The position numbers were made by a program, and so were the translations under genes. Shown in pieces: positions 1,287 to 23,022 of a DNA stretch of 23,022 bases; the stretch's first letter is position 1; every line of letters begins with the position of its first letter. The stretch lies in IMG/VR virus record IMGVR_UViG_3300005548_000477, positions 1 through 23,022 of that record; one strand, 5' to 3'. This DNA is from a virus. The notes under the pieces are model-generated. The model worked only from the letters and a program-made list of their open reading frames with translations, did no database searches and was not told where the DNA came from.

Positions 1287-1853
1287 ATGGCGTCTTCCCC
1301 GGGAGGCAGCGTCACCGGTTTCGCAGGATCGCGGCTCATCGCGCGCGGCGATCTGGCAGCGGTGGCTCTCGCCGCGCATGCAAACCAAGATCGCACTCCC
1401 CTGATCCTCAATGACTCAACTGGCCACGCCGTCGAAGTCGATCTGCGTGGCTCCGTGGACGACGTCCTGGCCCGATTGAGCCCAGCCTCTTCCGCTTCGA
1501 AGCCCGCCCGCGGCCGCCCGAAGCTCGGCGTCATCGCCCGCGAGGTTACGTTGCTCCCTCGCCACTGGGACTGGCTTGCGACCCAGCCGGGCGGCGCCTC
1601 GGCGACCCTGCGCCGCCTCGTCGACCAGGCGCGGCGAGAGACCGTAGACGCCGACGCGGTGCGCCAGACGCAGGAGGTGACCTACCGGGTTATGACGGCG
1701 CTGGCCGGCGACCGGCCTGGCTATGAGGAAGCGACGCGCGCCCTCTTCGCCCGCGATCGCGCGCGGTTCGAGGGCCTCGTTGCCGCCTGGCCAAAGGATG
1801 TCGCCGCGTACATCGGCGAGCTCAGCGAGCGGGCTTGGCCCCCTGTCCCCTGA
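1287..1853 (+). CDS. DUF2239 family protein, 188 aa
   Basis: This matches the DUF2239 family as I know it. The N-terminus reads FAGSRLIARGDLAAVALAAH, then a VDLRGSVDDVLARL stretch (about residues 50-64), then the family signature RGRPKLGVIAREVTLLPRHW (about 75-94), the LATQPGGASATLRRLV element, and a C-terminal AWPKDVAAYIGEL segment. Length is typical and the gene looks intact. The biochemical role of the family is not established; the central part looks ribbon-helix-helix-like, but I cannot confirm that. AGGAG lies six bases before the ATG. The gene runs against the phage operon, and its last 32 bases overlap the 3' end of the outer-membrane spanin gene. That is unusually tight for a host gene next to a prophage, so it may be phage cargo. 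Family assignment is firm; the host-or-phage question is open. Confidence 0.85.
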   Translation: MASSPGGSVTGFAGSRLIARGDLAAVALAAHANQDRTPLILNDSTGHAVEVDLRGSVDDVLARLSPASSASKPARGRPKLGVIAREVTLLPRHWDWLATQPGGASATLRRLVDQARRETVDADAVRQTQEVTYRVMTALAGDRPGYEEATRALFARDRARFEGLVAAWPKDVAAYIGELSERAWPPVP

Positions 1854-2124: not shown

Positions 2125-2392
2125 TGGCATCCTCCGATTTGAGCGCTTCAGGCATCAGGCGGGCGACAACGCCGTTGGCGGCGTCGCGCTGGCGGACCAC
2201 GACCTCGACCCGCTGAGCGCTCTGTTGCGCGCCCTGCGTCTCAAGGCCCGCGACAGCGGCCTTGGCGAGCGCGGCCTCGGTCTTCGGCCGCTCGCGGGCG
2301 GCGGCGTCATGGCGGCCCTTCAGATAGAGCCCGCCGGCCACGCCCAGCACCGCCAGCATGGCCGTGAGGATCAGGATCAGGCGCGGGCTCAT
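1961..2392 (-). CDS. Rz-like inner-membrane spanin
   Basis: This 143-residue protein has one N-terminal membrane segment (about residues 4-24, ILILTAMLAVLGVAGGLYL) followed by a charged, helical periplasmic stretch (about 26-80), as expected for an i-spanin. The start is the ATG at 2392, which overlaps the endolysin stop in an ATGA arrangement; a longer reading from 2476 would bury the membrane segment. The Rz1-like lipoprotein gene is nested in a different frame from 2124. The pair follows holin and endolysin in the lysis cassette, and the expected job is outer-membrane disruption after peptidoglycan is cut. The C-terminus is Pro/Gly-rich with two Cys, and may be disordered because it shares DNA with Rz1. 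Confidence 0.74.
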   Translation of the reverse strand: MSPRLILILTAMLAVLGVAGGLYLKGRHDAAARERPKTEAALAKAAVAGLETQGAQQSAQRVEVVVRQRDAANGVVARLMPEALKSEDANVPLDPARAARLRDADDGLCGARPDLGGCTQNSNAPSGAGAVRALPPTGSADDR

Positions 2393-2817
2393 TGCGGCAG
2401 CCCCAGGCCATAGCCGCCGGCCCGCCGCGTCAGAACCTGCCGTCGCATCCGCGGATCGAAGGACACGTGACACCACGTCCCCTCCTCGATGATCTGATCG
2501 AAATCCAGATCCGACTCAGCGAGCGCCCGACAGACCGCGAGCGCATCGCCAAAGCCGTAGCAGTTGAAATCCACCGCATGGCCGGTCAGGTGCGCCGAGG
2601 TCGCCGCCCCGCCCACCGCGCGGTTGAGCGAACGGCAGCGATAGCCGCTCGACACGGTGATCACCCGCCCGCCCAACTGGCGGCGCACCTCCTCCATCCG
2701 CGCCGCGGTCTCCCGCAGCGTCGCCACCACCTCCGGCGGCGGGGTGTTGTCAAACTCGCGATGCTGCGTGCACGCGAGCTCTTCCAGCGCGAAGTGCGCC
2801 GTCAGCTGAGTCACCAT
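2389..2817 (-). CDS. M15-family peptidase endolysin, 142 aa
   Basis: This is a peptidoglycan peptidase of the M15A type (D-Ala-D-Ala carboxypeptidase-like fold). The zinc-site motif SAHLTGHAVDF is at residues 74-84, giving His76 and Asp83 as ligands, and WCHVSF at 115-120 supplies the third ligand, His117. The SSGYRC element (56-61) before the motif is also typical. The length matches single-domain phage and GTA-type M15 endolysins. There is no signal peptide, so release depends on the holin upstream. The stop overlaps the Rz-like start by four bases. It would cleave stem-peptide crosslinks during lysis; the exact bond cannot be read from sequence. Confidence 0.88.
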   Translation of the reverse strand: MVTQLTAHFALEELACTQHREFDNTPPPEVVATLRETAARMEEVRRQLGGRVITVSSGYRCRSLNRAVGGAATSAHLTGHAVDFNCYGFGDALAVCRALAESDLDFDQIIEEGTWCHVSFDPRMRRQVLTRRAGGYGLGLPQ

Positions 2818-4216: not shown

Positions 4217-4585
4217 CTAGAGGTCCTTTGCGATGATCCGCGCCAGCGGCGCGTAACCTTTGGTCTTGAGCGCCCGCGCCCAGCCGTCCCGCCCGATCAC
4301 CAGCACGCGCCGGCAACCGCACGCGCGGCCCCACGCCTCGGCCAGCGGCAAGAGTTCGTCTTCCAGCTCGTCTCGCGCGCCGCCGGCCAGCCAGATCAGC
4401 AGCCGCCGCTCGCCCGGATCGTCTTCGATGGCGGCCACCAGGGCGCCGCCTCGGCCGGTCCACAACCGGGCCTCGCCGCGATCGATCGCGGCCCGCACAT
4501 CCTCAAGAGAGTGGGTTCGTCCAGCGTGGTCGAGCGCGGCGTCGAGCCAGGGCGCTGAGCGCGCCCACTCAGCCGCGAAATTCAT
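4217..4585 (-). CDS. small GNAT-fold phage protein, 122 aa
   Basis: This resembles the short acetyltransferase-like proteins often found in virion modules of tailed phages. Features seen: HSLEDVRAAIDRGEARLW near the N-terminus, a strand pair (GGALVAAIED; RRLLIWLAGG), then a helix, and a C-terminal GCRRVLVIGRDGWARALKTK segment ending in GYAPLARIIAKDL. A classic acetyl-CoA loop (Q/RxxGxG/A) is not evident, so catalysis is uncertain. The start chosen is the ATG at 4585, which overlaps the gp10-like stop by four bases; an upstream ATG at 4633 would run far into that gene. One base separates its stop from the next start. Its role is unknown; it could modify a virion protein or act structurally. 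Confidence 0.7.
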   Translation of the reverse strand: MNFAAEWARSAPWLDAALDHAGRTHSLEDVRAAIDRGEARLWTGRGGALVAAIEDDPGERRLLIWLAGGARDELEDELLPLAEAWGRACGCRRVLVIGRDGWARALKTKGYAPLARIIAKDL

Positions 4586-6114
4586 CGTCGCCCGGCCGCC
4601 GTGGCGTCGAACACTGGCTGGCCGATCCGGCACGCAGTTGGCGCGCTGGAGCCCGCGAAGGTCACCTTGAACAGCCGCCCGGAGACCAGGATGTCCGTCT
4701 TGGCGTCGCCGGGCGACATGGCGGGCGCAGCGACGATCAGCTCTTCGTCCTGCGGATGGCGCCGCGCGGTGATGCTCACAGCCACCGGGCCTAGTTGATC
4801 CTTGAAATCCGGCCAGACCTCCCGGACCAGCAGGCAGCTGTCCGGATCGAGATAGCTGTCGGCCGTCTCGATGAACCAGGAAAAGGCCTGGCCGTCCGCC
4901 GAATGTCCCTTCTCGTGGTGGTAGGCCACGCCGTCATAGGTGACGCCGATCGGATAGAGCGATGGCCCCGCGTCGACGAAGGCTGTCCGCGCCATCACAC
5001 CGCGATGCCAGGCGCCTGCATCCGCGCCGGAGAGGGCCAGCGCCAAGTATCGACTGTTCTCATAACCGTCGCGGCTGTCAGGATAGTCGAAACGGATCTC
5101 CGAAAACTCGGCGTTGGACGACGCCACGACCTTGTCGCCCTGGCTGGCCGCCAGCCGATCGGCGAAATCCTGGCGGATCGGGCACGCGATCGGCTCGGGC
5201 TGGCCGCCGACGCCATAGCTGTAGAACTGCCGGTCTGGGCTCGCCCAGAAGGCGGTTTGCCCGACGACCACCGCTGCGTTCGGCCCGACGAGGCCACAGT
5301 TGCGGCCCACCCGGTCGAAGCGCCAGGGCTGGTTCAGCGACCCGACGAAGGTTCCCAGGAACAGGGCGTCGCTCGTCCACACCAGCATGTAGGGCCCGAC
5401 CATCCGCCCGGCGACGATCCGCCCACCGCCGGTCAGCACATATTCGCGCGCGGTCGAGCCGTCGGCGAGCGTGCTCCACTGGGTATTGTCGCGGATCGAG
5501 GAGTGGCGGATGCAGAGCGGGTTGAAGGTCCCGGAAACCTCCTCGTTGCAGCCGAGCGCAAAGACCTGGTAGCCGCCGTTCAACGGCGCCACCAGCATGT
5601 GCGTGACATTCGCCGGGGCATTGGCCAGCGCCGCGGCAGGCGCGCCTGTGTCGTTGGTCCACGCGAAGATCGTCTGGTTGCGCGGGCTCGCCAGCAGGTT
5701 CTGCCCCCATGCCCCGAAGGACCAGGTCAGCGGGAAGTAGTCGGTCGTCGACGGCTGTCCAAAGCCGCCGACCCCATAGCCGCCGGTGCCGTACCCTGCC
5801 CCGCCAGCCCCATCGATCGCGCCGGCCGCGAAGCCCGACGCCGGCGTGATATCGAACAGCGCCCCGCCCTGCCAGAGTTGCAGCTTCGAATGGGTGCCGA
5901 ACGCGATATTCAGCACCGCGGCGTTGTCGGTCCAGGGAAACACCGTCCGGCAGACCCCGGTGAGCGGGTCCGCCGACAGGCTCTCCCACCCACCGATCGT
6001 CTGCGCCCGCCCCAGCCGGAACCGCACATTGGACCCATCAGCCCACCGCCCGTTCCCAGCAAAGCTGGTGTCATCGCCGTTCAACCCCGGCGGAAGGTCG
6101 AGGGGAATTCGCAT
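4582..6114 (-). CDS. P22 gp10-like packaged-DNA stabilisation / tail hub protein
   Basis: This 510-residue protein begins MRIPLDLPPGLNGDDTSFAG and continues with ADGSNVRFRLGRAQTIGGW, the usual opening of the gp10-like phage stabilisation family. Repeated Trp/Tyr-rich strands through the middle fit a beta-propeller-like body, and length is close to P22 gp10 (about 470). In P22, gp10 closes the portal channel after packaging and joins the tail machine. An oddity is the Gly/Tyr-rich insert at about residues 100-120 (GAGGAGYGTGGYGVGGFG). CAGGAG lies six bases before the ATG. The gene diverges from the plus-strand methyltransferase with only 29 bases between starts, a gap that also holds a 6-bp inverted repeat (6126-6140). 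It overlaps the GNAT gene downstream. Confidence 0.8.
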   Translation of the reverse strand: MRIPLDLPPGLNGDDTSFAGNGRWADGSNVRFRLGRAQTIGGWESLSADPLTGVCRTVFPWTDNAAVLNIAFGTHSKLQLWQGGALFDITPASGFAAGAIDGAGGAGYGTGGYGVGGFGQPSTTDYFPLTWSFGAWGQNLLASPRNQTIFAWTNDTGAPAAALANAPANVTHMLVAPLNGGYQVFALGCNEEVSGTFNPLCIRHSSIRDNTQWSTLADGSTAREYVLTGGGRIVAGRMVGPYMLVWTSDALFLGTFVGSLNQPWRFDRVGRNCGLVGPNAAVVVGQTAFWASPDRQFYSYGVGGQPEPIACPIRQDFADRLAASQGDKVVASSNAEFSEIRFDYPDSRDGYENSRYLALALSGADAGAWHRGVMARTAFVDAGPSLYPIGVTYDGVAYHHEKGHSADGQAFSWFIETADSYLDPDSCLLVREVWPDFKDQLGPVAVSITARRHPQDEELIVAAPAMSPGDAKTDILVSGRLFKVTFAGSSAPTACRIGQPVFDATAAGRR

Positions 6115-6143
6115 GCGGAACTCCTGCTGCTAGAAGCAGCGTT

Positions 6144-6917
6144 ATGAAGATCATCGAAACCCTCGCCGCCGACTGCAAGGTATGCGGATCAGAGGTGCGG
6201 CCGTTTGGCCGCATCGACTTCAATCGTTCGTGTGAAGATGAACGATCATCTCCGTTGGTGCCGGCTGGCTACGCGATCCCTTACACACGTTGTGTTAGGT
6301 GTGGGCTGATTTTTACAAGTGCGTTTGATCAATGGTCTACACATGAATTTTCTTCGTTAATATATAACGACGAATACATCCGCGTAGATCCGGATTTTAT
6401 TGAATCTAGACCTAGAAATCACGCAACTATGATTTCTACTGAGTTGCGATCATTCGAGAGTCAAGTACATGGATTAGACTACGGCGGCGGAAACGGTTTA
6501 TTTTCCAAGTTGATGCAAAAATTTGGCTTTAACGATTATGAATCATACGATCCGCTGATCGCCGAATTCTCGGCGAAACCAGAAAAATTGTTCAACTTAA
6601 TAACTTGCTTTGAAACTTTAGAGCATCTTCATAAACCGCTATTTGCAGTAAATGATATGTCATCTATGCTTGACGATCATGGTATTATATTTTTTTCTAC
6701 AATGATTCAACCAGAAAACATCCAAGATATTGGAATTTCATGGTGGTACATCGCGCCAAGAAACGGGCATATTACAATATATACGAAATTGTCATTAAAT
6801 ATTATGTGGAGAAGTCTGGGATTTGAATTTGCGTCATTCAACGACAATTATCACGTTGCATACAAGAAAATCCCAGATTTCGCGGTTAACCTGCTTCGAA
6901 AAGCGCGGCCTACCTAA
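6144..6917 (+). CDS. class I SAM-dependent methyltransferase with N-terminal zinc-type cysteines
   Basis: This 257-residue protein has two CxxC pairs at the N-terminus (Cys11/Cys14 and Cys50/Cys53), likely a zinc site. The SAM-binding loop LDYGGGNGLF is at 111-120, an acidic ribose-binding candidate is in SYDP (Asp136), and CFETLEHLHKP is at 155-165, the post-II/motif IV region of Methyltransf_23-type enzymes. A late RNGHITIYTKLSL element (206-218) is typical of that group. Relatives act on sugars or other small molecules, but the substrate here is unknown. From about base 6220 the gene is strikingly AT-rich, with many TTA, AAT and ATA codons, unlike its neighbours, so it was probably acquired recently. 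It reads against the phage operon and ends in a four-base overlap (CTAA) with the glycine-rich gene. No strong ribosome site is visible. Confidence 0.87.
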   Translation: MKIIETLAADCKVCGSEVRPFGRIDFNRSCEDERSSPLVPAGYAIPYTRCVRCGLIFTSAFDQWSTHEFSSLIYNDEYIRVDPDFIESRPRNHATMISTELRSFESQVHGLDYGGGNGLFSKLMQKFGFNDYESYDPLIAEFSAKPEKLFNLITCFETLEHLHKPLFAVNDMSSMLDDHGIIFFSTMIQPENIQDIGISWWYIAPRNGHITIYTKLSLNIMWRSLGFEFASFNDNYHVAYKKIPDFAVNLLRKARPT

Positions 6918-7765
6918 GATATCTTTAATCGGCCAGCCACACCGGGATTTCCAGCTGCTCCGCGATCTGCGTCAGCATTATTTCCGGGTATTGCTCCTAC
7001 GCCTGCGCTTAGCACCGCGGAAAGCACGCGAGTTGCGTCACAATAGCTCGAGCCGCCACCGCCGCCCCTAGGCAAGAAGAGATTGTCAGGATCACTTGGG
7101 TTCGAGATTGAGCCACCTGAGCCGCCCCCGAAATAGCCGCCACCACCGCCTCCAGTCTGGATGCCGGCGGCTGTAGCGTTGCCACCTTGCAACGTGCTTC
7201 CATCCTGTCCGCTGGAACCCGAACCGATCCCGCGCCCGCCGCCCAAGGTCTGGTTGCCTCCCTTGCCGCCAACGGTAGCGTCCTGCGCGCCACCTCCGAC
7301 CAATCCGCCACCAGCGCCGCCGCCACCCAGTGACATGGCGTTTCCTGCAGCACCGCCGCCTCCGGCTGCAATCAATACGGGAGAGGCGGCCACTTTTCTA
7401 AGGCCGGAGAACCCGCCACCGCCGCCACCTCCGATCCCGCCGCTGCCTCCGCCTGGCGAACCGGCCGCTCCCTCTGAAAATGAGGAACCCACATCAATGG
7501 TGTAATTCAGACCCGGCTCGAAGTAGACTGTCCCGCCCGCAAAGCCTCCGGCACCGCCGTTCCACGTGGTGCTACCGCCCCCGGCGCCCCAGGCTTTGGT
7601 TTGGGCATAGAAGGCCCCTAGTGGGGTGATAGCCCAAGAACCGGGCGATGCCAGATTCAACGGACCATTGGCGTCAAGGTCCCAGGCCGATTTGCCCGAA
7701 ACCGGGGGCGAAATCAGGAACGCTCGACGATTGGACGCTAGCATGGCGATCTTCGAGGCGGTCAT
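6914..7765 (-). CDS. glycine-rich adhesin-like tail protein, 283 aa
   Basis: The N-terminal ~45 residues look like a phage-attachment segment (SGKSAWDLDANGPLNLASPG). The rest is a glycine-rich domain: an opening strand module (AFYAQTKAWGAGGGS, AGGTVYFEPGLNYTIDVGSS) followed by many poly-Gly runs separated by aromatic or polar residues, ending in AAGNPGVAGRLKIS. This matches the glycine-rich domains of phage tail proteins and of metazoan ALK-type receptors, where Gly stretches pack as polyproline-II helices; S16-type phage adhesins use the same architecture for receptor recognition. Function by analogy is host-surface binding at the fibre tip. The start shares ATGA with the tail-fibre-like gene, and the stop overlaps the methyltransferase stop by four bases. 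Confidence 0.8.
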   Translation of the reverse strand: MTASKIAMLASNRRAFLISPPVSGKSAWDLDANGPLNLASPGSWAITPLGAFYAQTKAWGAGGGSTTWNGGAGGFAGGTVYFEPGLNYTIDVGSSFSEGAAGSPGGGSGGIGGGGGGGFSGLRKVAASPVLIAAGGGGAAGNAMSLGGGGAGGGLVGGGAQDATVGGKGGNQTLGGGRGIGSGSSGQDGSTLQGGNATAAGIQTGGGGGGYFGGGSGGSISNPSDPDNLFLPRGGGGGSSYCDATRVLSAVLSAGVGAIPGNNADADRGAAGNPGVAGRLKIS

Positions 7766-8643
7766 GATGCATTCAACGCGAGCACTGCACCGGTCCAGGT
7801 AGTCCCGCCGTTCATGGTGAGGAATGAGATGACACTACGCCCGTTCGGAAGGGTCGGAGCAACACCACCGGACCAGGCAACGGACGTCGGCCATGTAGGT
7901 ATGGCTCCAGCGGAAATTGTTAGCTCCAAAATGAAAGCTTGAGCCTTTCCAGCTGTCGCACCAACGAAACCAAATGACGTATTCACACTTATTGTCTTGA
8001 TAAAAAATTCTCCAGTCGCTACGTCAATAGATGCGCCTAGAATGGACAATACTTCTTCTTTTACACTTCCCGAGAGAGTGTAACCATTGATGATCGATAT
8101 GGCGTCAAACGCGCCAATGTCGGCGGACTGGATGCGGCGAGGCAGCCACACCGTTCCGTCGCAGTAGAGATACTTTCCTCCATTCCCCGTGGCGGCTGGG
8201 AGACTGCCAGTCGCAGAAAGTACAGAGGCGGCGATAAAGTCTTTTAGAGGATAGCCGCCATATCCCGGCGTCTTCACATTGATCCCGTCGCAGGCGACCT
8301 GAACGATATCGCCGGCGTCGACCGCCACGACCGCGCCGGCGCCGGTGGTCAGGGTCACCGCCGACGAACAGGCGTTCCACACCAGGTAGCTCTTGCTCAC
8401 GGACGGCAGCGTCACTGTGAACGGCCCCGCGCCGGTGAATTTCACCATCGCCGCGCGCGCCTCGTCGTCGCCGGCGTTGGCGGTCGCGAGCGCTCCGTCA
8501 GCGGTCAGCGCCTTGGTCAACCAGCCGGCCACCGCATAGTCGGCGTGGCCCAGGACCGCGTTCAGCTTGTCGCCCCACAGGTTGATGTTCTCGCCCGTGA
8601 ACTGCAGCTCGAACCGCAGCGAGGGAGACCAGGACGAGGGCAT
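7762..8643 (-). CDS. tail-fibre-like protein, 293 aa
   Basis: The N-terminus contains FTGENINLWGDKLNAVLGHAD (about residues 13-33), a motif common at the start of phage tail-fibre and base-wedge proteins, followed by a repetitive strand-rich domain (FTGAGPFTVTLPSVSKSYLV, then TLTTGAGAVVAVDAGDIVQV). The C-terminal half, from about residue 140, is a different strand-rich domain with visibly lower GC content (about 7920-8230), suggesting exchange of the receptor-facing part. The start is the ATG at 8643, overlapping the preceding small gene in TGATG; an upstream ATG at 8733 lies inside that gene and would add unrelated residues. It forms a fibre/adhesin pair with the glycine-rich protein, its stop overlapping that start. 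Confidence 0.72.
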   Translation of the reverse strand: MPSSWSPSLRFELQFTGENINLWGDKLNAVLGHADYAVAGWLTKALTADGALATANAGDDEARAAMVKFTGAGPFTVTLPSVSKSYLVWNACSSAVTLTTGAGAVVAVDAGDIVQVACDGINVKTPGYGGYPLKDFIAASVLSATGSLPAATGNGGKYLYCDGTVWLPRRIQSADIGAFDAISIINGYTLSGSVKEEVLSILGASIDVATGEFFIKTISVNTSFGFVGATAGKAQAFILELTISAGAIPTWPTSVAWSGGVAPTLPNGRSVISFLTMNGGTTWTGAVLALNAS

Positions 8644-8888
8644 CAGCCGATCACCGCGCCGGTGTCCTGGCGGATCCAGTGGACGCCGTCGGAATGGGCC
8701 AGGGTGCTGAGGTCGCTGACCAGCGCCACACACTGCGGATAGGACGCGGCCGGCGGCAGCTTGGCCTGGACGGCGGCGAACACCGGCTTGGGCTCCTCCG
8801 GCGTCTGCAGCTCGCGGATCGCGTCGTGGATCGACTTCAGCACGGTGTGGAAGGCGGCCGGGATTCCCGGCCCGATGGGCGTCAGCAT
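8643..8888 (-). CDS. small phage protein, 81 aa
   Basis: This is a short soluble protein: a helical N-terminal half (FHTVLKSIHDAIREL) and a C-terminal half with LAHSDGVHWIRQDTGAVIG. The latter kind of ending (SDG..W.RQDTG) is familiar from small genes next to tail-fibre genes in alphaproteobacterial phages, and may be a fibre-associated or trimerisation-assisting protein. That is context inference. The ATG at 8888 lies two bases after the adaptor stop, and its stop overlaps the fibre gene by one base, so all three are translationally coupled. Confidence 0.68.
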   Translation of the reverse strand: MLTPIGPGIPAAFHTVLKSIHDAIRELQTPEEPKPVFAAVQAKLPPAASYPQCVALVSDLSTLAHSDGVHWIRQDTGAVIG

Positions 8889-9607: not shown

Positions 9608-10777
9608 CTAGTGGTTGGCCAGCCGGCAGGCGAGCTGCGGACGGATGGTCTTGAACCCGTAGAGCACGTCGAGGCGGCACGGGAACTTGTCGTTGTTGAT
9701 GTCGTACTGGCGGACGATCCGCATCGACACCCCGTCGAAGGCCTCGCGGGCGGCGAAGTCGACGCCACGCGGCATCACCATGTCGGCGCTGGCGAAGGCG
9801 AAAGCTCCCTTCTGATAGGCCATGGAGATCCCGTAGTTGGTGGAGGCCGTCCCCGAGAAGGTGATGGCGGCCGCCGAGGCCGGCGAGCCAGACACGTTCT
9901 GGCCCGCGCCGCTGGTGACGATCGCCGGGCTGATCGTGAACGAGGTCGTGGTCGAGGTCCCGCTGATCACGAACTGCTGCAGGATCCCCGTCGACTGCTT
10001 GGTCTCCGGATGCACCCGGAAGACGCCGGCGATGGTGAAGACGTCGCCGAGCGCCGGGACGCCCGTGCCGGTGTTCACCGTCAACGCGCCGCCCGCCTGC
10101 GAGGCGCCGTTCACCTGATAGCCCGCCGCGGCGCTGCGCGGATGCGACGGCCACAGCGTGTTCTCCATGAAATCGAACCCGGCGGTCCGGCCCATGAAGC
10201 CCTCGCGGTTCTGCTTGCTGATCGTCGTCTGGTCGTTGAACAGGCCCTTCAACGCGTCCACCAGGTCGACGTTGTCCTGGGTGTTCAGATTGCAGGTCCG
10301 ACCGTTCAGCGGCGCCAGGTTGTCCACCAGGATCTTGCGGCCCTGCAGCACCTTGGTGAAGGTCGCCGCCTGCCCCTGGTTGTCCACCTGGTTGTAGACG
10401 TCGCGGTACATGGTCATGGCGTCGGCCTCGATGTTGGCCGCCAGCACGCTCATCGCTGGTTCGATGATCCGCTCGGAGAAATCGTCCAGCGCCAGCGTCA
10501 GGTCTACCGACGTGAAGTTCAGGTCGACGCCCTTCTGCGTCTGCACCTTCAGGTCCACCGAGGTCTCGGTGGTGTCCTGGGCGGCCAGCGTCGAGCCGGT
10601 CCGCACCGTGTACTGGTTGGGCAGGCGCACCTTCAGGGTGTCGCCCACCTTGGCGCCCTGGCGGGCGAAGCTGTCGTCGTATTCGCGCGTGATCGAGCCC
10701 ACGAAGTTGAGCTTCTGATGCAGCACGCGCAGGGCCTCCCGCGTCACCGCGGTCGGCGTCAGGATGGCGTTGGCCAT
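9608..10777 (-). CDS. P22-type major coat protein, 389 aa
   Basis: This belongs to the P22 coat (gp5) family. The N-terminus MANAILTPTAVTREALRVLH, then NFVGSITREYDDSFARQGAK and LKVRLPNQYTVRTG, is the usual opening, with the N-arm, long spine helix and P-domain regions in order; IEADAMTMYRDVYNQV (about 135-150) is also typical. Length is slightly below P22 gp5 (430). An Ig-like insertion is plausible in the Gly/Thr/Ser-rich middle (about 220-310). A good AAAGGA lies upstream of the ATG. About 220 bases separate it from the divergent membrane-protein gene, the largest gap in the head operon, so a separate promoter for coat could lie there, but I could not find a convincing one. Confidence 0.9.
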   Translation of the reverse strand: MANAILTPTAVTREALRVLHQKLNFVGSITREYDDSFARQGAKVGDTLKVRLPNQYTVRTGSTLAAQDTTETSVDLKVQTQKGVDLNFTSVDLTLALDDFSERIIEPAMSVLAANIEADAMTMYRDVYNQVDNQGQAATFTKVLQGRKILVDNLAPLNGRTCNLNTQDNVDLVDALKGLFNDQTTISKQNREGFMGRTAGFDFMENTLWPSHPRSAAAGYQVNGASQAGGALTVNTGTGVPALGDVFTIAGVFRVHPETKQSTGILQQFVISGTSTTTSFTISPAIVTSGAGQNVSGSPASAAAITFSGTASTNYGISMAYQKGAFAFASADMVMPRGVDFAAREAFDGVSMRIVRQYDINNDKFPCRLDVLYGFKTIRPQLACRLANH

Positions 10778-14270: not shown

Positions 14271-16187
14271 TCAAGCCGTCGGCGGCGCGCCGCGCAAGGC
14301 CTTCAGCCGGTTCGTCTCCGCTTCAAACGCATCGATCTCCAGTTTGCGCGCCTCGTGACTGCGATCCTGCTGCAGGGCGGCGATCTGAGCCTTCGCCGCC
14401 GCCAGCGCCTGGGCAAGCTTCGAGAGCTCAGCCTGAGCGGCCTGGGCCTGCGGATCGGCCCCGCGAGCTTGCGGCGGCAGCATCGCCTGCAGGCGCTGTG
14501 CAACATCGTCGGCGCCCGGCCAGTCGAGGTTCTTGGCCAGCAGGTCGCCGATCACCGGCGCGGCGGCGGGATAGGCGCGGATCAACTCCAGCATCTGGTT
14601 GGCCGCCTCTTCCCGGCGGCTGGTGAAGCTCGGCCCCGACCGCACCGTCAGGTCGTACTTGCCGACGGTCAGGTCGTAGATCTTCTCGATCTGCCGCAAC
14701 TGGCCGGTCGGATCGGGTTGCGCCTGGCCCGCGCCCGCGCTCCGCGCGGGCTGGTTCACCGGCGCCGCCCTCGCCTGGCCGTCCGGCCCCAGAACCCGCA
14801 CCACCCGCGGCGCCGCATAGACCTTGGGGATCAGGTCCAACAGGATCCGCCCGGCGTGGCGCATAGCCCGGTTCAGATTGTCCACATAGTGGAAGGTCGA
14901 GACGTCGCCCTCGCGCTGGCGCATCAGGATCGCCCTGCCGGAGGTCTCGTTGGAAGGCGCGCCCAGGCTCGCGTCATAGAGGCCCATGATCGACTTCATG
15001 TCGTCGGCCGCATTGGCCGCCTCGGCCATGGCGCCGGCCGGCGGGCCAGCGAAGCCCTGTCGCATCGGCGGTTCGGGGCCGTCGTACTCGATATAGGCGT
15101 GCGTCTGGGTATTGGCCGTCGCCCACTTGGCGCTGTCGGTCTCGAAGGCGCCCTTGCGGCCGATGAACGGGATCTTGGGCGCCAGCGCCACCAGTTCGGT
15201 CGAGGTCGTGCGCCAGTAGTTGAACATCCGCTGCGGATCCTTGGCGTCGCGCACCAGCCCGCGCAGTCGCCGGCGGCCGTCCACATGCAGTTCCTCGCCA
15301 TAGACTGGCACGATCGGGATGAACTTCCCCGCCCACTCCACAGTTTCCAGCACCTCTGCGCCGGTCAGGATGCGCTGCGTCACCTTGTGGCTCGCCACCT
15401 GCCGCGGACGCCCGACGACAGTGACGCCTAAGGCGTCGAACATCGCCTTCTGTTTCTCGTAGACCGCGATCTCGACGACCTGGCCGTCCGACAGCGCCAC
15501 GATGGTCCGCCGCACCGCCTCCCGCCGCCAGTGCTCGGCCACCATCACTCGGTCGCCCTCCAGCCAGGGGCTGGTCAGCGAAGCGTAGCTGTCGGCGGTC
15601 CAGTCGACTGCATCGGCGCCCTTCCACCGCGCCTCGAAGGCGGCCTTTGGGAGCGTGTCGACCACGAAGGCCGAGTTCCAGTCGGACGAATCGGCCGCCG
15701 TCCCGTCCGGGTCGCCGTAGATCGAGAAAGGGTTCGCCACCCGCTCGATCACCAGGTCCTGGTCGAACCCGTCGTCGGAGGCGTAGCGCGTGTTGATCCG
15801 GAAGTAGCCGAAGCCTGCGGTCACCGCGAAATCGAGCGCGGTGTCATAGGCGACCTCCGCGTCCGAGGACTGCTCGATATGCCGGATCAGCCCGTTGAAC
15901 ACTTCGGCGGTGTCCGGGTCCGCGGCGTCGTCCACCGGATGCACCACGATGGCGGGCTTGTTCTGCCGCGCGTCGTTGACCACCTGGCGGATGAAGGCCG
16001 GCAGCCGGTTGATGGTCAGGCAGGGCCGCCCGTCCAGGTCCCGCTCGCGCTTGATCTGCGCCGGCCACTGTTCGCCCAGCCTCGCGAACCGCAGGTCGTC
16101 CAGCGCCTCGCGCCGGTTCTCGGCCTCGGCGTCCGCCGCCAGCTCGAACGCCTCGCGGGCGTCGCGGATGATCTCGTCGTCGGACAA
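14271..16187 (-). CDS. P22-type portal protein, 638 aa
   Basis: This belongs to the P22 portal family: after an acidic helical start (SDDEIIRDAREAFELAADAE) come LGEQWPAQIKRERDLDGRPC, LTINRLPAFIRQVVNDARQN, a standard opening, then GFGYFRINTRYASDD, IYGDPDGTAADSSDWN and MVAEHWRRE. The wing and stem regions follow, and the last 80 residues are a helical barrel-like, Ala/Gln-rich tail. P22 gp1 has 725 residues; this one has a shorter barrel. The start is TTG at 16187, with GGAG six bases upstream; the upstream ATG at 16259 would be translated through a terminator hairpin. The dodecamer forms the DNA entry vertex. Confidence 0.88.
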   Translation of the reverse strand: MSDDEIIRDAREAFELAADAEAENRREALDDLRFARLGEQWPAQIKRERDLDGRPCLTINRLPAFIRQVVNDARQNKPAIVVHPVDDAADPDTAEVFNGLIRHIEQSSDAEVAYDTALDFAVTAGFGYFRINTRYASDDGFDQDLVIERVANPFSIYGDPDGTAADSSDWNSAFVVDTLPKAAFEARWKGADAVDWTADSYASLTSPWLEGDRVMVAEHWRREAVRRTIVALSDGQVVEIAVYEKQKAMFDALGVTVVGRPRQVASHKVTQRILTGAEVLETVEWAGKFIPIVPVYGEELHVDGRRRLRGLVRDAKDPQRMFNYWRTTSTELVALAPKIPFIGRKGAFETDSAKWATANTQTHAYIEYDGPEPPMRQGFAGPPAGAMAEAANAADDMKSIMGLYDASLGAPSNETSGRAILMRQREGDVSTFHYVDNLNRAMRHAGRILLDLIPKVYAAPRVVRVLGPDGQARAAPVNQPARSAGAGQAQPDPTGQLRQIEKIYDLTVGKYDLTVRSGPSFTSRREEAANQMLELIRAYPAAAPVIGDLLAKNLDWPGADDVAQRLQAMLPPQARGADPQAQAAQAELSKLAQALAAAKAQIAALQQDRSHEARKLEIDAFEAETNRLKALRGAPPTA

Positions 16188-16210
16188 GGATAACTCCCAA
16201 GGCGGCAAGC

Positions 16211-16238
16211 AAAAAACCCCGCGCGAGCGAACCCGGGG
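16211..16238 (-). terminator. intrinsic terminator just upstream of portal
   Basis: On the minus strand a GC stem (CCCCG paired with CGGGG, with one further G-C pair after a mismatch) is followed directly by six T (16211-16216). It lies between the promoter at 16336-16364 and the portal start at 16187, so every transcript entering the head operon from that promoter meets it. This is the layout of a late promoter with an early terminator, controlled by antitermination or attenuation. The stem is short, but it is all GC with a perfect T6 tract. Confidence 0.72.
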
Positions 16239-16293
16239 GTGGATGACGGGCCGAAACACGCCCCGCTGACATCTGGAAGGAAGCGGACCGGAG

Positions 16294-16385: not shown

Positions 16386-16697
16386 TCAGCTGGCCGGCGG
16401 CGCGAGGGCGGCCGACGCCTTGCGCAGAGTTCGATCGGCGAAGATCAGCCCCAGCGAGATCACCAGCAACGCCATGCCGCACACGATGGCGACCGTCGTG
16501 CCGACACGGACGATCCAGGCGATCGCGTCGGCAGCGCCGACAAACCCTGCGGAGCCTGTGAACTTGAGTCCTTCCGGAACCCGTCCGATCAAGGTGCCCA
16601 GCGAGGCCAGGCCGAGAAACAGCGCCGCGCCCGCGATCACGTCGTCAGGCAACTCGCCATGGCCGCCCCCGAAGAGCTGAACGATGCAAAAGGCCAT
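16386..16697 (-). CDS. small membrane protein, 103 aa, possibly N-terminally damaged
   Basis: Two clear hydrophobic helices lie at about residues 18-38 and 66-88, with a basic tail. The family is unknown. The ATG at 16697 has no convincing ribosome site. The same frame stays hydrophobic upstream (LAAIFGSGAV before the ATG) until a TAG, while an ATG one frame away (MTVERVS) lies just before it. A frameshift near the true start is therefore possible and the gene may be decayed. It lies downstream of the decayed gene at 16845-17044 and upstream of the portal promoter. It could be a cargo partner like the other membrane proteins in this operon. Confidence 0.5.
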   Translation of the reverse strand: MAFCIVQLFGGGHGELPDDVIAGAALFLGLASLGTLIGRVPEGLKFTGSAGFVGAADAIAWIVRVGTTVAIVCGMALLVISLGLIFADRTLRKASAALAPPAS

Positions 16698-16781
16698 GAC
16701 CGCGCCGGACCCGAAAATGGCCGCCAGCCGAAACGCGCTCTACCGTCATTGTCCCAACACGCCTTACAGAAATGCGGCGCG

Positions 16782-16817
16782 ACGCTGACAGCGCCGCTTG
16801 GCGACGTCAAGAACAAA
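16782..16817 (-). repeat. degenerate third copy of the promoter repeat
   Basis: ACGCTGAC (16782-16789) and GTCAAGAACAAA (16806-16817) match the two ends of the promoter part of the 79-bp repeat, but 16 bases separate them instead of 27, and no -10 remains. It is probably a dead remnant of a promoter in front of the small membrane-protein gene. Confidence 0.45.
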
Positions 16818-16844
16818 GCAGAAACCGCGAGGGTAGGCCAAACC

Positions 16845-17044
16845 TCAGGGGTCGGTCCGCTGCGGGTCGGGCGCCGCTGAGGCCGCCGGCCCTGCTCCGC
16901 CGCGCAGAACGTCCTGGCCCGTCGCGCCCATGAAGAGCGGATCGTTCCGGGCCTGCAAGACGCGGTTTCACCGCACCATGTCATCCCAGGCATCGCCCAG
17001 CGGATCGGCACGCTGAAGGGGTCGCTATCGAGCACCTGAGCCAT
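16845..17044 (-). pseudogene. decayed small phage gene (frameshift and nonsense)
   Basis: An excellent ribosome site (GGAGG at 17051-17055, six bases before the ATG) starts a frame reading MAQVLDSDPFSVP, which then loses sense. Shifting by one base near 17004 gives DPLGDAWDDMVR, a TGA, and in the same frame RNDPLFMGATGQDVLRGG to a clean TGA at 16845. The downstream part has the flavour of a genuine short phage protein and the start is well formed, so I read it as an intact ~65-residue gene broken by one indel and one stop. Programmed frameshifting is less likely, because the in-frame TGA also has to be bypassed. It directly follows the beta-helix gene, by 28 bases. Confidence 0.5.
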
Positions 17045-17072
17045 GTTGGACCTCCAGTGGAATTGTCGCATC

Positions 17073-18296
17073 TCAGGCCTCGAGCGCCGTCCGCGCCGCG
17101 GCGACGCGGGCCTGCTCGGCGTTCAGCGCGGCGCCTGCGGCGGCCAGCTGCGTCAAGGCGTCGCTGAGCTTTCCCTGGGTGTCGGCCAGCGACGCTTCCG
17201 CCGCCTGCGCCCGCACCGTCAGCGCGGCGATCTGCGCGTCCTTCGGATCGGGTTCAGCGAGCGGCGGCGGCTCCGAACGCTGCGCCAGCCAGGCATCCAG
17301 CGCCGAGGCGTCACCCACTCTGGCGTTGGCTGTCACGGTCGTCCCGCTGACCACCGGCCTCACTGGATCGGCCTCGCCCGCCTGGTGCAGCAGAACAACC
17401 GGCGCCGTCGCGGTATTGTCCTTCACCGCCACGTCAGATGACCCGCCGCGCACGATGATCCGCGCGCCGTAGTCCTCGTAGCCCTGCACCAGGTTCCCCT
17501 GGATCAGGCCGCCGACGCAGGTCGAGAAGGAGATGCCGTTCAGTAGGGTGCCGACCAGCGCGTTGCCGACGACCTGCAGGTTCTGCTGGCTCTCGGCGAA
17601 GATCCCCTGCGCGGCGCCGCCGAACCCCGCCTGCGCGCCAGCGCTGCCGCGCACATAGCTGCAGTTGCGGATCACGTTGTCGACTCCGAGGGCGTTCTTC
17701 GCCGTCGACCAGAACTGGAAGGCGTCGGGATGCACGCTCACCGAGCCGTCGGCGTCCACGGTCGGGCGCAGGTCATGCACCCGCACGCCGTCCAGCACGC
17801 AGTTGGAGCATCCGGCGATGTCGACGCCGTCCGCGCCCAGGTCGTGGATGTCCGTGTCGGTCAAACTCACCCGCTGGCTGTCCATCAGGCCGACGCCGAC
17901 ACCCAGGTGATGGAAGGCGCAAGCCTCCATCGTCAGGTCGCTGCAGTCCCGGACGAACATCCCGACGCCGCCCAGGGACAGATCGGCGGAATGGCCCTGG
18001 AGGTTTCGGAACGCCAGCTGTGACGAGCCCACCGCCTGCACCGCGTACTGCCCCTTGGGCTGTGGCAAGGCGATCTCGAAGCGTTCGAAGCTGAGACCTT
18101 GAGAGCCGTTGACGACCAGGCCGTCCAGCACCACTAGGCCGCCGGCCTTCACTGTCACGCCCGGCTGCGCCTTGCTGAAGTTGGAGAGCGTGAGAACGCC
18201 ATACTTGCCGGTCGCCAGGACGATGGTGTCGCCGGCTGTGGCCGCTTTCACGGCCGCCCAGGCGGCGTCGGTGGTGGTGACGGTGCTGGTCGCCAT
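17073..18296 (-). CDS. right-handed beta-helix tail protein, 407 aa
   Basis: Residues 1-60 (AWAAVKAATAGDTIVLATGK, then GVLTLSNF) and the repeated short strands to about residue 310 have the rhythm of parallel beta-helix proteins (pectate-lyase / Pgp1 / tailspike type): turns such as NGSQGLSFERFEI, CSDLTMEACAFHHLG, SQRVSLTDTDIHDLGADGVDIAG. The end, from about 345, is a coiled coil (DAQIAALTVRAQAAEASLAD and onward), a likely trimerisation element. Such phage proteins often bind or cut surface polysaccharide. A catalytic acidic patch cannot be identified from sequence, so it may be binding only. GGAG precedes the ATG. It is 15 bases downstream of the Ig/lectin-like gene. Having the coiled coil at the C-terminus is less usual for tailspikes, which attach by the N-terminus. 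Confidence 0.78.
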   Translation of the reverse strand: MATSTVTTTDAAWAAVKAATAGDTIVLATGKYGVLTLSNFSKAQPGVTVKAGGLVVLDGLVVNGSQGLSFERFEIALPQPKGQYAVQAVGSSQLAFRNLQGHSADLSLGGVGMFVRDCSDLTMEACAFHHLGVGVGLMDSQRVSLTDTDIHDLGADGVDIAGCSNCVLDGVRVHDLRPTVDADGSVSVHPDAFQFWSTAKNALGVDNVIRNCSYVRGSAGAQAGFGGAAQGIFAESQQNLQVVGNALVGTLLNGISFSTCVGGLIQGNLVQGYEDYGARIIVRGGSSDVAVKDNTATAPVVLLHQAGEADPVRPVVSGTTVTANARVGDASALDAWLAQRSEPPPLAEPDPKDAQIAALTVRAQAAEASLADTQGKLSDALTQLAAAGAALNAEQARVAAARTALEA

Positions 18297-18311
18297 CTCT
18301 GCTCCGCGCGC

Positions 18312-21400: not shown

Positions 21401-22726
21401 TCACCCCATCCAGCCCAACGGCTCCCCCAGCCGCGCCCGCGCCCGCCTCGCCATCGCCCCGCCCGCCCGGTTGGCCGCGAACTCCCCGAACGCATCCGCC
21501 CCATGGCTCATCTGGTCATGCAGCGGCCCGCCGTAGCTGCGGGTCGCCCGGTTCCAGCGCTTGCGGTAGCCCCGCAGCCGTTCGAGCCCGGCAGCGCACT
21601 TCTCCCCGTCGAACCAGGTCATCGGAATCATCAGCCGCCCGGCGTTGATCCGTTCTTCCGGATCCATCGCCGCGCCCACCGAGATCGGAGCCACACCCAG
21701 TCCGCCCAGGGTCTCGAACCGCGAGCGACCGGCCGCGCCCAGCTCGCGCACCATCACGTCGTGCGGCAGGTGGTGCGTCCCGAAGACATAGGGCTTGCCG
21801 GCGATCGCCTGCTTTGCCACCGCCTGCAGCCCCTCGCCCGAAGTCTCGAAATAGTCGATCGCGCGCACCTCGCGCCCCGCCTGCTGGAAGAACCAGATGG
21901 CGGTGTAGTCGTCGATGCCGAGGTCCCACGCAGTGTCGACCCTGAGCGCCGGGTCGTAGGGAACGCGCCCGATACGCCCGTCCCGCTCGGCCTGACCCAG
22001 CAGGCCCGCGTAGTAGGCGCCCGGCGCCGCGGCGTCGAAGTCCACCAGATACTCCGAGGCATAGCGCGCGTGGCCCTCCTCCTCGCTGCCGAGCTCGGCG
22101 ACCAGCTCCGCTCGCTCGCGGTCTAGCTGCTCGCGCGTGAAGACGTCGGTCTGCGTCGCCGGCGAGCGGAGGGTGAACCACTCCGGATCGCGCGCCCTCG
22201 CCTCGAACGCCCGCGTCGCATGGCCCCGGCCACGCGGTGTCCAGAGGAACAGCGCCCACCCGCCGTTCTCCGCCAGGATCGGGCGGATGAAGCTCCAGGC
22301 GTCCGGTTTGGCCAGTGACCACTCGGAAAACACCACGCCCCGCGGGGGGGAGCCCATCAGGGAGTTGAAGTTGTCCGATCCCACGACCTGCCAGGTCGAC
22401 CCTTCCTTCAGGTGGATCATCATCTCCGCATCTCGCGTCCGCGCGCGGATCGATTTCGGGAATGCCTCATCGATGCGGCGGCGGCCCGAATGCGGGTTCA
22501 CCGCATCCCACACCGCCTTGCGCCCCTGGCTCGCCTCGGGCAGCAGGTGCCAGTAGGTCCCGGGCTTGGTCGCAGCCTGGCTGGCCGTCCAGTTCAAGGC
22601 CACCTCGTCCTTGCCCCAACGGCGATGGGCGACGATGTCCGCCCGCTTCCCGCCGCCTTCGAGATAATCCCACAGCGCCCGTTGATAGCCGCGCGGCTCC
22701 CACTTCGCCGGAAGGATGGCCTTCAT
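21401..22726 (-). CDS. terminase large subunit, 441 aa
   Basis: This is the ATP-driven DNA packaging motor with its headful nuclease. The N-terminal ATPase has PRGYQRALWDYLEGGGKRAD, then HRRWGKD at residues 34-40 as a Walker A variant (the usual GKS/T is GKD), and VVFSEW at 131-136 as Walker B with Glu135 catalytic. WTPRGRGHA (162-170) is the coupling motif. The C-terminal RNase H-like nuclease has DTAWDLG (264-270), DYFETSGEG (291-299) and DQMSHGADAFGE (404-415) with Asp411, supplying the acidic metal ligands. The length is typical. The start overlaps the small-subunit stop in ATGA. Confidence 0.92.
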   Translation of the reverse strand: MKAILPAKWEPRGYQRALWDYLEGGGKRADIVAHRRWGKDEVALNWTASQAATKPGTYWHLLPEASQGRKAVWDAVNPHSGRRRIDEAFPKSIRARTRDAEMMIHLKEGSTWQVVGSDNFNSLMGSPPRGVVFSEWSLAKPDAWSFIRPILAENGGWALFLWTPRGRGHATRAFEARARDPEWFTLRSPATQTDVFTREQLDRERAELVAELGSEEEGHARYASEYLVDFDAAAPGAYYAGLLGQAERDGRIGRVPYDPALRVDTAWDLGIDDYTAIWFFQQAGREVRAIDYFETSGEGLQAVAKQAIAGKPYVFGTHHLPHDVMVRELGAAGRSRFETLGGLGVAPISVGAAMDPEERINAGRLMIPMTWFDGEKCAAGLERLRGYRKRWNRATRSYGGPLHDQMSHGADAFGEFAANRAGGAMARRARARLGEPLGWMG

Positions 22727-23022
22727 CGGAACATCGCCTCGGTAGCTTCGGCCTCGGCCTCGTCTTGCGGGGTCACCTCGCTGAAGCGCTTGACGATCAC
22801 CGTCATGCCCCCCGCCGCGGGGTCCTTCGTGGCCTTGGGCTTGGCCTTCGCCGCGGGTTTCGGCTTGCCGTGCGCGCGGTCCAGAACCTCGCGCGCCGCC
22901 GCCAGCTTCACCCCATCCTGGCCAGTCCCTCCCATGATGGCGGCCAGCGTCTTCAGCGCCAGCTCGCTCAGTTTCTGCGCCTCCTTTCGCAGCGCGGCCT
23001 CGGACATCGGCTGTGACGCCAT
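22723..23022 (-). CDS. putative terminase small subunit, 99 aa, at window edge
   Basis: The product is helical at the start (MSEAALRKEAQKLSELALKT), then LAAIMGGTGQDGVKLAAARE, VLDRAHGKPKP, a pattern common in small terminase-type DNA-binding subunits of alphaproteobacterial phages (a short helix bundle followed by LLDRGxGKP). The next part is a Lys/Ala/Pro-rich linker and an acidic end. The ATG lies at the last base of the window, so a longer N-terminus upstream cannot be excluded. Coupled by ATGA to the large subunit. It would recognise the packaging site. Confidence 0.75.
   Translation of the reverse strand: MASQPMSEAALRKEAQKLSELALKTLAAIMGGTGQDGVKLAAAREVLDRAHGKPKPAAKAKPKATKDPAAGGMTVIVKRFSEVTPQDEAEAEATEAMFR

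Follow-up and report, generated by a model that had tools for sequence, protein, structure and literature searches.

A low-GC methyltransferase gene as one allele of an exchangeable adhesin/enzyme slot in a probably domesticated P22-type particle cluster

The window, by which we mean the whole stretch of DNA analysed here, is an IMG/VR fragment of 23,022 bases that carries a cluster of P22-type virion genes (Table 1). The cluster comprises terminase, scaffold, portal, major head protein, tail, gp10 and endolysin genes, with a CI/S24-type repressor present in its relatives. Within it, an open reading frame with an ATG start and a TAA stop encodes a 257-residue protein on the plus strand, whereas the virion genes on both sides lie on the minus strand. 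A gap of 29 bases separates this gene from the start of the gp10-like gene at 6114, and the bases CTAA (6914-6917) are common to its stop and that of the adjacent adhesin gene. This placement agrees with the preliminary description of this DNA, as does a plot of base composition along the window. GC content drops sharply from about 0.69 to 0.35-0.39 over approximately 6300-6900, and no other 774-bp stretch of the window has so low a GC content as the gene (0.412; window mean 0.669, sd 0.052). Its GC3 is 0.42, compared with 0.85-0.95 in the gp10, MCP and portal genes. The initial ~70 bp of the gene are not AT-rich.

Table 1. Positions of the genes, motifs and exchanged block in the window
Feature	Position	Strand	Basis and remarks
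DUF2239 gene at cluster/murA junction	1287..1853	+	Pfam DUF2239
M15 endolysin	2389..2817	-	Pfam Peptidase_M15_3; phrog_894
P22 gp10-like tail/head-completion protein	4582..6114	-	phrog_3287 virion structural protein, E 7e-48; gp10-like name from the preliminary description; left border of cassette
Exchanged cassette: fibre tip, adhesin and methyltransferase	6116..8254	.	Breakpoints against L003
Class I SAM-dependent methyltransferase	6144..6917	+	257 aa, GC 0.41; Pfam Methyltransf_23, AF2 model, PDB fold match, dN/dS
N-terminal CxxC...CxxC codons (C11, C14, C50, C53)	6174..6302	+	Putative zinc-binding domain; metal binding predicted
SAM-binding motif I LDYGGGNG, residues 111-118	6474..6497	+	Conserved in alignments
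Family signature PRNGH, residues 205-209	6756..6770	+	Nearly invariant; candidate active-site region with a putative catalytic role
Glycine-rich adhesin-like protein	6914..7765	-	Pfam ALK_LTK_GRD, E 1.3e-8; convergent with enzyme; putative adhesin
Tail-fibre protein	7762..8733	-	phrog_9017; N-terminus conserved, tip ~7762-8254 exchanged
Major head protein	9608..10777	-	phrog_283, E 1e-79
P22-like portal protein	14271..16259	-	Pfam P22_portal, E 1.6e-202
Probable large terminase, cut by record end	21401..23020	-	77% identical to G276 protein, itself a weak terminase-PHROG match

The related locus L002 carries the same gene in the same place, with 91% amino-acid identity to the window methyltransferase. 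Comparison of the two gave dN 0.041 and dS 0.176 (dN/dS 0.23), so the gene encodes a real, intact methyltransferase under purifying selection. Its product matches Pfam Methyltransf_23 at E 2.8e-23 (82.9 bits, cut-off 27), while the PHROG search yielded no assignment and the phage collection searched held no homologue. A search upstream of the gene for a sigma-70 or other standard promoter found none.

We modelled the protein with AF2 from an alignment of 32 sequences, which gave a pLDDT of 93; a single-sequence model (pLDDT 33) was discarded in favour of this one. The top PDB fold matches of the model are the dTDP-sugar C-3'-methyltransferases KijD1 and TcaB9, with E values down to 3.6e-11, and the profile match to KijD1 spans residues 10-234, covering both the cysteine region and the methyltransferase domain. 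The profile score above the cut-off, motif I and a Rossmann-type fold with methyltransferase matches place the protein among the class I SAM methyltransferases. Like KijD1 and TcaB9, it has an N-terminal CxxC zinc-type region joined to a Rossmann methyltransferase domain. However, it lacks the C-terminal domain and the ~400-residue length of that type (257 residues versus ~410), its identity to these enzymes is 14-18%, and the TM-score is ~0.40 on target length.

The two cysteine pairs, C11/C14 and C50/C53, are invariant in the alignment of 32 homologues, and the four cysteines, motif I and the C-terminal PRNGH signature are invariant or nearly so across the viral homologues. Invariant H161, Y202 and H209 fall near the expected positions of the KijD1/TcaB9 catalytic His and Tyr, as placed by alignment offsets only. 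The earlier assignment to Methyltransf_23-like enzymes with N-terminal CxxC pairs thus holds, given the Pfam match and the four invariant cysteines. That the modelled fold lies nearest to those of sugar methyltransferases is among our most secure conclusions, and from the model we infer that the enzyme methylates a sugar.

Relatives of the cluster were gathered with the gp10-like and portal proteins among viral contigs and by gp10 alignment among genomes. Genes in these loci were called with our own script and not a standard gene finder, and some may be missed or added. The interval from the fibre N-terminus to gp10 is variable in 69 distinct related loci. Its usual order is fibre, a ~136-residue protein, the glycine-rich adhesin, one or two opposite-strand genes and gp10; the ~136-residue gene is absent from the window. 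The enzymes found in the slot include methyltransferases of the Methyltransf_23, _24, _25 and FkbM types, GT1/GT4 and TPR/GT9-like proteins, a hexapeptide acyltransferase, alpha/beta-hydrolases, HipA and Fic. An opposing gene lies adjacent in 41 cassettes; of these, 14 have a stop-to-stop overlap of exactly four bases, and in 38 the enzyme has a lower GC content than gp10. In L033, L034, L112, L136, L145 and L146 there is no enzyme and the adhesin abuts gp10. A HipA gene with an HTH-like protein and a Fic gene occupy the glycan-enzyme slot at L005:5023-6755 and L007:6691-7800, respectively.

Comparison with L003 defines the exchanged block. The two flanks of this locus match the window at 99.2% and 98.2% identity. 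Between them, window 6116-8254 is replaced, a block that runs from the start of gp10 to mid-way through the fibre gene. The AT-rich gene is therefore no isolated insertion; it belongs to a swapped module, of which it is the most extreme part. Distances between adhesin tips do not follow those of gp10 (r 0.07). A strict matching of adhesin and enzyme was also considered and set aside, as a permutation test found a weak association between their families (p 0.06). On these comparisons of loci, the methyltransferase is one allele of a hypervariable adhesin/enzyme slot, a conclusion that ranks with the modelled fold as most secure. The suggestion that an exchangeable enzyme gene of foreign composition is paired with the adhesin gains support here, with a sugar-methyltransferase-like fold and neighbouring alleles that are often glycan-modifying.

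A short element, TTGT[GCT]TC-N17-(ATTGATC/AATGATC/ATTCATC), is conserved upstream of gp10 in 18 of the 69 loci (for example L008, L123 and L131). It points from gp10 into the cassette, mostly precedes a ~550-residue GT4 gene, and is absent from the window; it is a candidate cassette promoter. A GCTANA motif resembling a -10 box in 4 of 18 upstream regions was not taken as evidence, having been picked after seeing the data and coming from three independent loci. A second variable island lies between terminase and portal (window 16386-20855). Here the window encodes an Ig-domain (He_PIG) protein and a beta-helix protein for which the genome loci searched contained no homologue. At the same island, G276 carries a TPR/GT9-like gene and a histidine kinase.

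With respect to the origin of the gene, a tree of 60 sequences groups it with two Phenylobacterium chromosomal copies (GC 0.68-0.69; support 99/91) and with a same-slot allele from L012 (GC 0.58), and a clade of AT-rich phages is separate. Large AT-rich phages were considered as donors since such phages carry the family, and were rejected because the tree places the gene with the GC-rich Phenylobacterium copies. No donor of matching composition was found among the homologues. The preliminary description had proposed recent acquisition from an AT-rich source. This proposal is partly supported. The swap is indeed recent relative to L003, since the flanks are 98-99% identical, but the closest homologues are the GC-rich Phenylobacterium copies and the GC-0.58 allele, which makes an AT-rich source doubtful.

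The family recurs in the AT-rich large phages L177, L194, L196, L201 and L208, beside recombination-nuclease-like genes, and also occurs in T4-like phages in non-fibre contexts. On chromosomes, a Phenylobacterium homologue (44-45%) lies near GT41 and FkbM genes. In L154/L163 these neighbours are a GT41 O-GlcNAc-transferase-like gene and an FkbM methyltransferase, together with an ALTTAQ-repeat protein. L163:397-10271, from Phenylobacterium, holds the repeat protein (21 matched stretches), GT41, FkbM and the homologue of the window methyltransferase, and is possibly a protein O-glycosylation locus. The relative in L164 lies near TPR/GT9 proteins and a sugar dehydratase. Several other chromosomal homologues are orphans amid housekeeping genes, which counts against a sugar-enzyme context.

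The named genomes that carry the cluster all belong to Phenylobacterium, to Caulobacteraceae/Caulobacterales, or to unclassified Alphaproteobacteria/Proteobacteria. The gp10-like gene was found in 49 of the 101 Phenylobacterium-genus genomes searched, usually in one copy, and the portal in 16 of 398 genomes of the order (~4%). The cultured P. kunshanense BUT-10 (locus L119) is one of the carriers. In these relatives the cluster sits next to tRNA-Thr and murA-hisD. Six of seven genomes examined over 60 kb show the cluster, then murA, hisD and/or the same downstream genes, and among the 27 genome loci whose sequence reaches 6.4 kb or more past gp10, 24 have murA or hisD there. The exceptions are L128, where the distance is ~20 kb, and L132 and L149, which have neither within the available sequence. 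The left end of the cluster in relatives carries an S24/HTH (CI/S24-type) repressor and an Sf6-type small terminase. At the right end, the window has the relatives' arrangement of endolysin followed by DUF2239, a domain matched 29 times in the genome loci searched, in most cases 3.5-5 kb past the start of gp10. Since the record ends before murA would begin, we infer the window's own chromosomal position.

No tyrosine integrase was found near the cluster in 10 of 11 genomes; in the exception, G182, an integrase lies 8.5 kb from gp10 and murA is not adjacent. Similarly, no serine recombinase was found on the cluster contigs of four genomes. Recent integration at tRNA-Thr was considered and rejected, as the far (left) side of the cluster showed no matching repeat in five genomes. 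Amino-acid distances of the cluster proteins correlate with those of murA (Mantel r 0.84 for gp10, 0.84 for the gp4-like protein, 0.77 for the portal and 0.71 for the fibre N-terminus), comparable to the murA-hisD reference of 0.74. Part of the gp10 value may reflect linkage, as the gene lies physically close to murA. The correlation with murA is weak for the major head protein (r 0.38) and not significant for terL (n=7 genomes), which suggests that some parts of the cluster move horizontally. Taken as a whole, the cluster appears to be resident and to co-diversify with its host, a conclusion that these comparisons support well but do not prove.

Genomes without gp10 show apparent relics at the murA locus, namely terL and an endolysin in G786 and a repressor and an endolysin in G806. 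In L305 (G793), another gp10-less locus, a divergent P22-type portal (37%) and head protein (29%) lie upstream of murA; the murA site may therefore have held more than one such cluster.

Because of the murA adjacency, the usual lack of an integrase, divergence that tracks murA and carriage in 49 of 101 genomes, we think that the window probably belongs to a domesticated P22-type particle cluster that is GTA- or PBSX-like and inherited vertically, and that it is not clearly a phage. The cluster would be a domesticated prophage that makes such particles. The fibre tip, the glycine-rich adhesin and the enzyme are exchanged as one block, probably by recombination in the conserved flanks, with the surrounding P22-type virion genes staying in place. 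The enzyme would methylate a sugar of the producing cell, as a nucleotide-sugar or within a surface glycan. A cassette swap would then change the particle's adhesin and the surface modification jointly, much like the variation in O-antigen type and tailspike among P22-like phages. For this account as a whole, an exchangeable allele in a domesticated particle cluster that encodes a sugar-methylating enzyme and belongs to a cassette altering adhesin and surface modification together, we estimate a probability of roughly 0.55.

Set beside the published definition of GTAs (PMC9662315), the cluster has caudoviricete-derived structural proteins (P22 portal, head protein, scaffold and gp10-like protein), and in relatives it is endogenised, mostly vertically inherited and co-diversifying, more weakly so for the major head protein and terL. 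The definition also requires that mostly random host DNA is packaged, that the head is too small for the whole element, and that DNA is delivered. The cluster fits the genomic parts of this definition; a role as a PBSX-like element or some other defective prophage is no less plausible.

The preliminary description had suggested lysogenic conversion, in which the cluster would be an ordinary temperate P22-like phage, the methylated glycan of the lysogen would block or alter adsorption of phages using the adjacent adhesin, and murA would mark a favoured tRNA-Thr attachment site. A tRNA-Thr, a classic kind of phage attachment site, does abut the cluster, with a CI/S24-like repressor at the left end, a nearby integrase in G182 and weak congruence of the major head protein with the host. 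Additionally, P22-like phages carry and exchange glycan-modifying gtr operons (PMC2629481). We consider this explanation a real possibility but a doubtful one, since the cluster has a fixed place at murA, co-diversifies with it in what is usually a single copy per genome, and has left apparent relics at the same locus, while most genomes (10 of 11) lack a tyrosine integrase near it, the five genomes inspected have no tRNA repeat on its far side, and no annotated phage portal reaches at least 60% identity. Rather doubtful, too, is a generic accessory (moron) slot, in which the methyltransferase would act on an unrelated small molecule, RNA or defence target and the adhesin would be adjacent only because the site tolerates insertions. 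HipA with its HTH protein, Fic and alpha/beta-hydrolases share the slot, the moron-like HipA and Fic genes counting against a glycan-only role, and the family occurs in T4-like phages and as chromosomal orphans. Against this, sugar C-methyltransferases are the best fold matches, many other alleles are of glycan-modifying types, and the convergent overlap with the adhesin stop is repeated.

The enzyme might instead modify the particle's own adhesin or fibre, as protein or protein-linked glycan, and so tune receptor binding. Its joint exchange with the adhesin and fibre tip as a single block fits such a role, as do the TPR/GT9-like glycosyltransferases in the slot and the chromosomal homologue near a GT41 O-GlcNAc-transferase-like gene and an ALTTAQ-repeat protein. 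We think it unlikely, given the weak association of adhesin and enzyme families and the retention of the adhesin in loci with an empty enzyme slot. A more specific proposal is that of a P22-type Phenylobacterium GTA whose matched adhesin and glycan enzyme are exchanged as one cassette, with particles that recognise the glycan mark of the same cassette, a lock-and-key that would direct gene transfer to kin or steer it away from the producer. As the permutation test gave p 0.06, we offer lock-and-key specificity as a hypothesis, and quite an improbable one.

Among known systems, P22-type phages likewise vary their glycan-modifying genes and receptor-binding proteins by exchange (PMC2629481). Unlike gtrABC serotype conversion, the window has no operon of gtrA, gtrB and membrane gtrC but one gene for a soluble enzyme, which runs convergent with the adhesin and lies between it and gp10 inside the virion cluster, and many unrelated families fill this position across loci. 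The domesticated-cluster reading aligns with the GTAs (RcGTA/CcGTA, BaGTA and BhGTA), FpGTA and PBSX, which are phage-derived chromosomal structural clusters of mostly vertical descent; here, too, an integrase is usually absent. It differs from RcGTA in its P22-type portal, its fixed place at murA and its exchangeable adhesin-enzyme cassette, and in being described so far by gene content. In RcGTA, spike and tail fibre attach to a capsule that varies and is missing from some strains (PMC10218006), which makes an adhesin and glycan-enzyme cassette plausible in a GTA-like system. FpGTA, from a 2026 report (PMC12946183), was presented as the first GTA-like element resembling a podovirus, so an element of podovirus type is not without precedent. 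The closest phage parallel is with the Chlorobiaceae phage CV-1-33, a P22-portal podophage whose portal is 51% identical to that of the window. In contrast to CV-1-33 and other P22-portal podophages, the cluster has no close relative among annotated phages and its methyltransferase no homologue in the phage collection. No report of a P22-type element in Phenylobacterium was found in the collection of literature searched.

If the cluster is domesticated, an undescribed P22-type element of GTA- or PBSX-like kind would be present in about half of the Phenylobacterium-genus genomes searched, for the most part at one locus, and IMG/VR would list pieces of a particle system as viruses. The adhesin and enzyme cassette would then offer a direct route to testing recipient choice via a modified surface glycan. 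Even if the cluster is an ordinary phage, these loci would provide a large natural collection of adhesin and surface-modification genes that replace one another at a single fixed slot.
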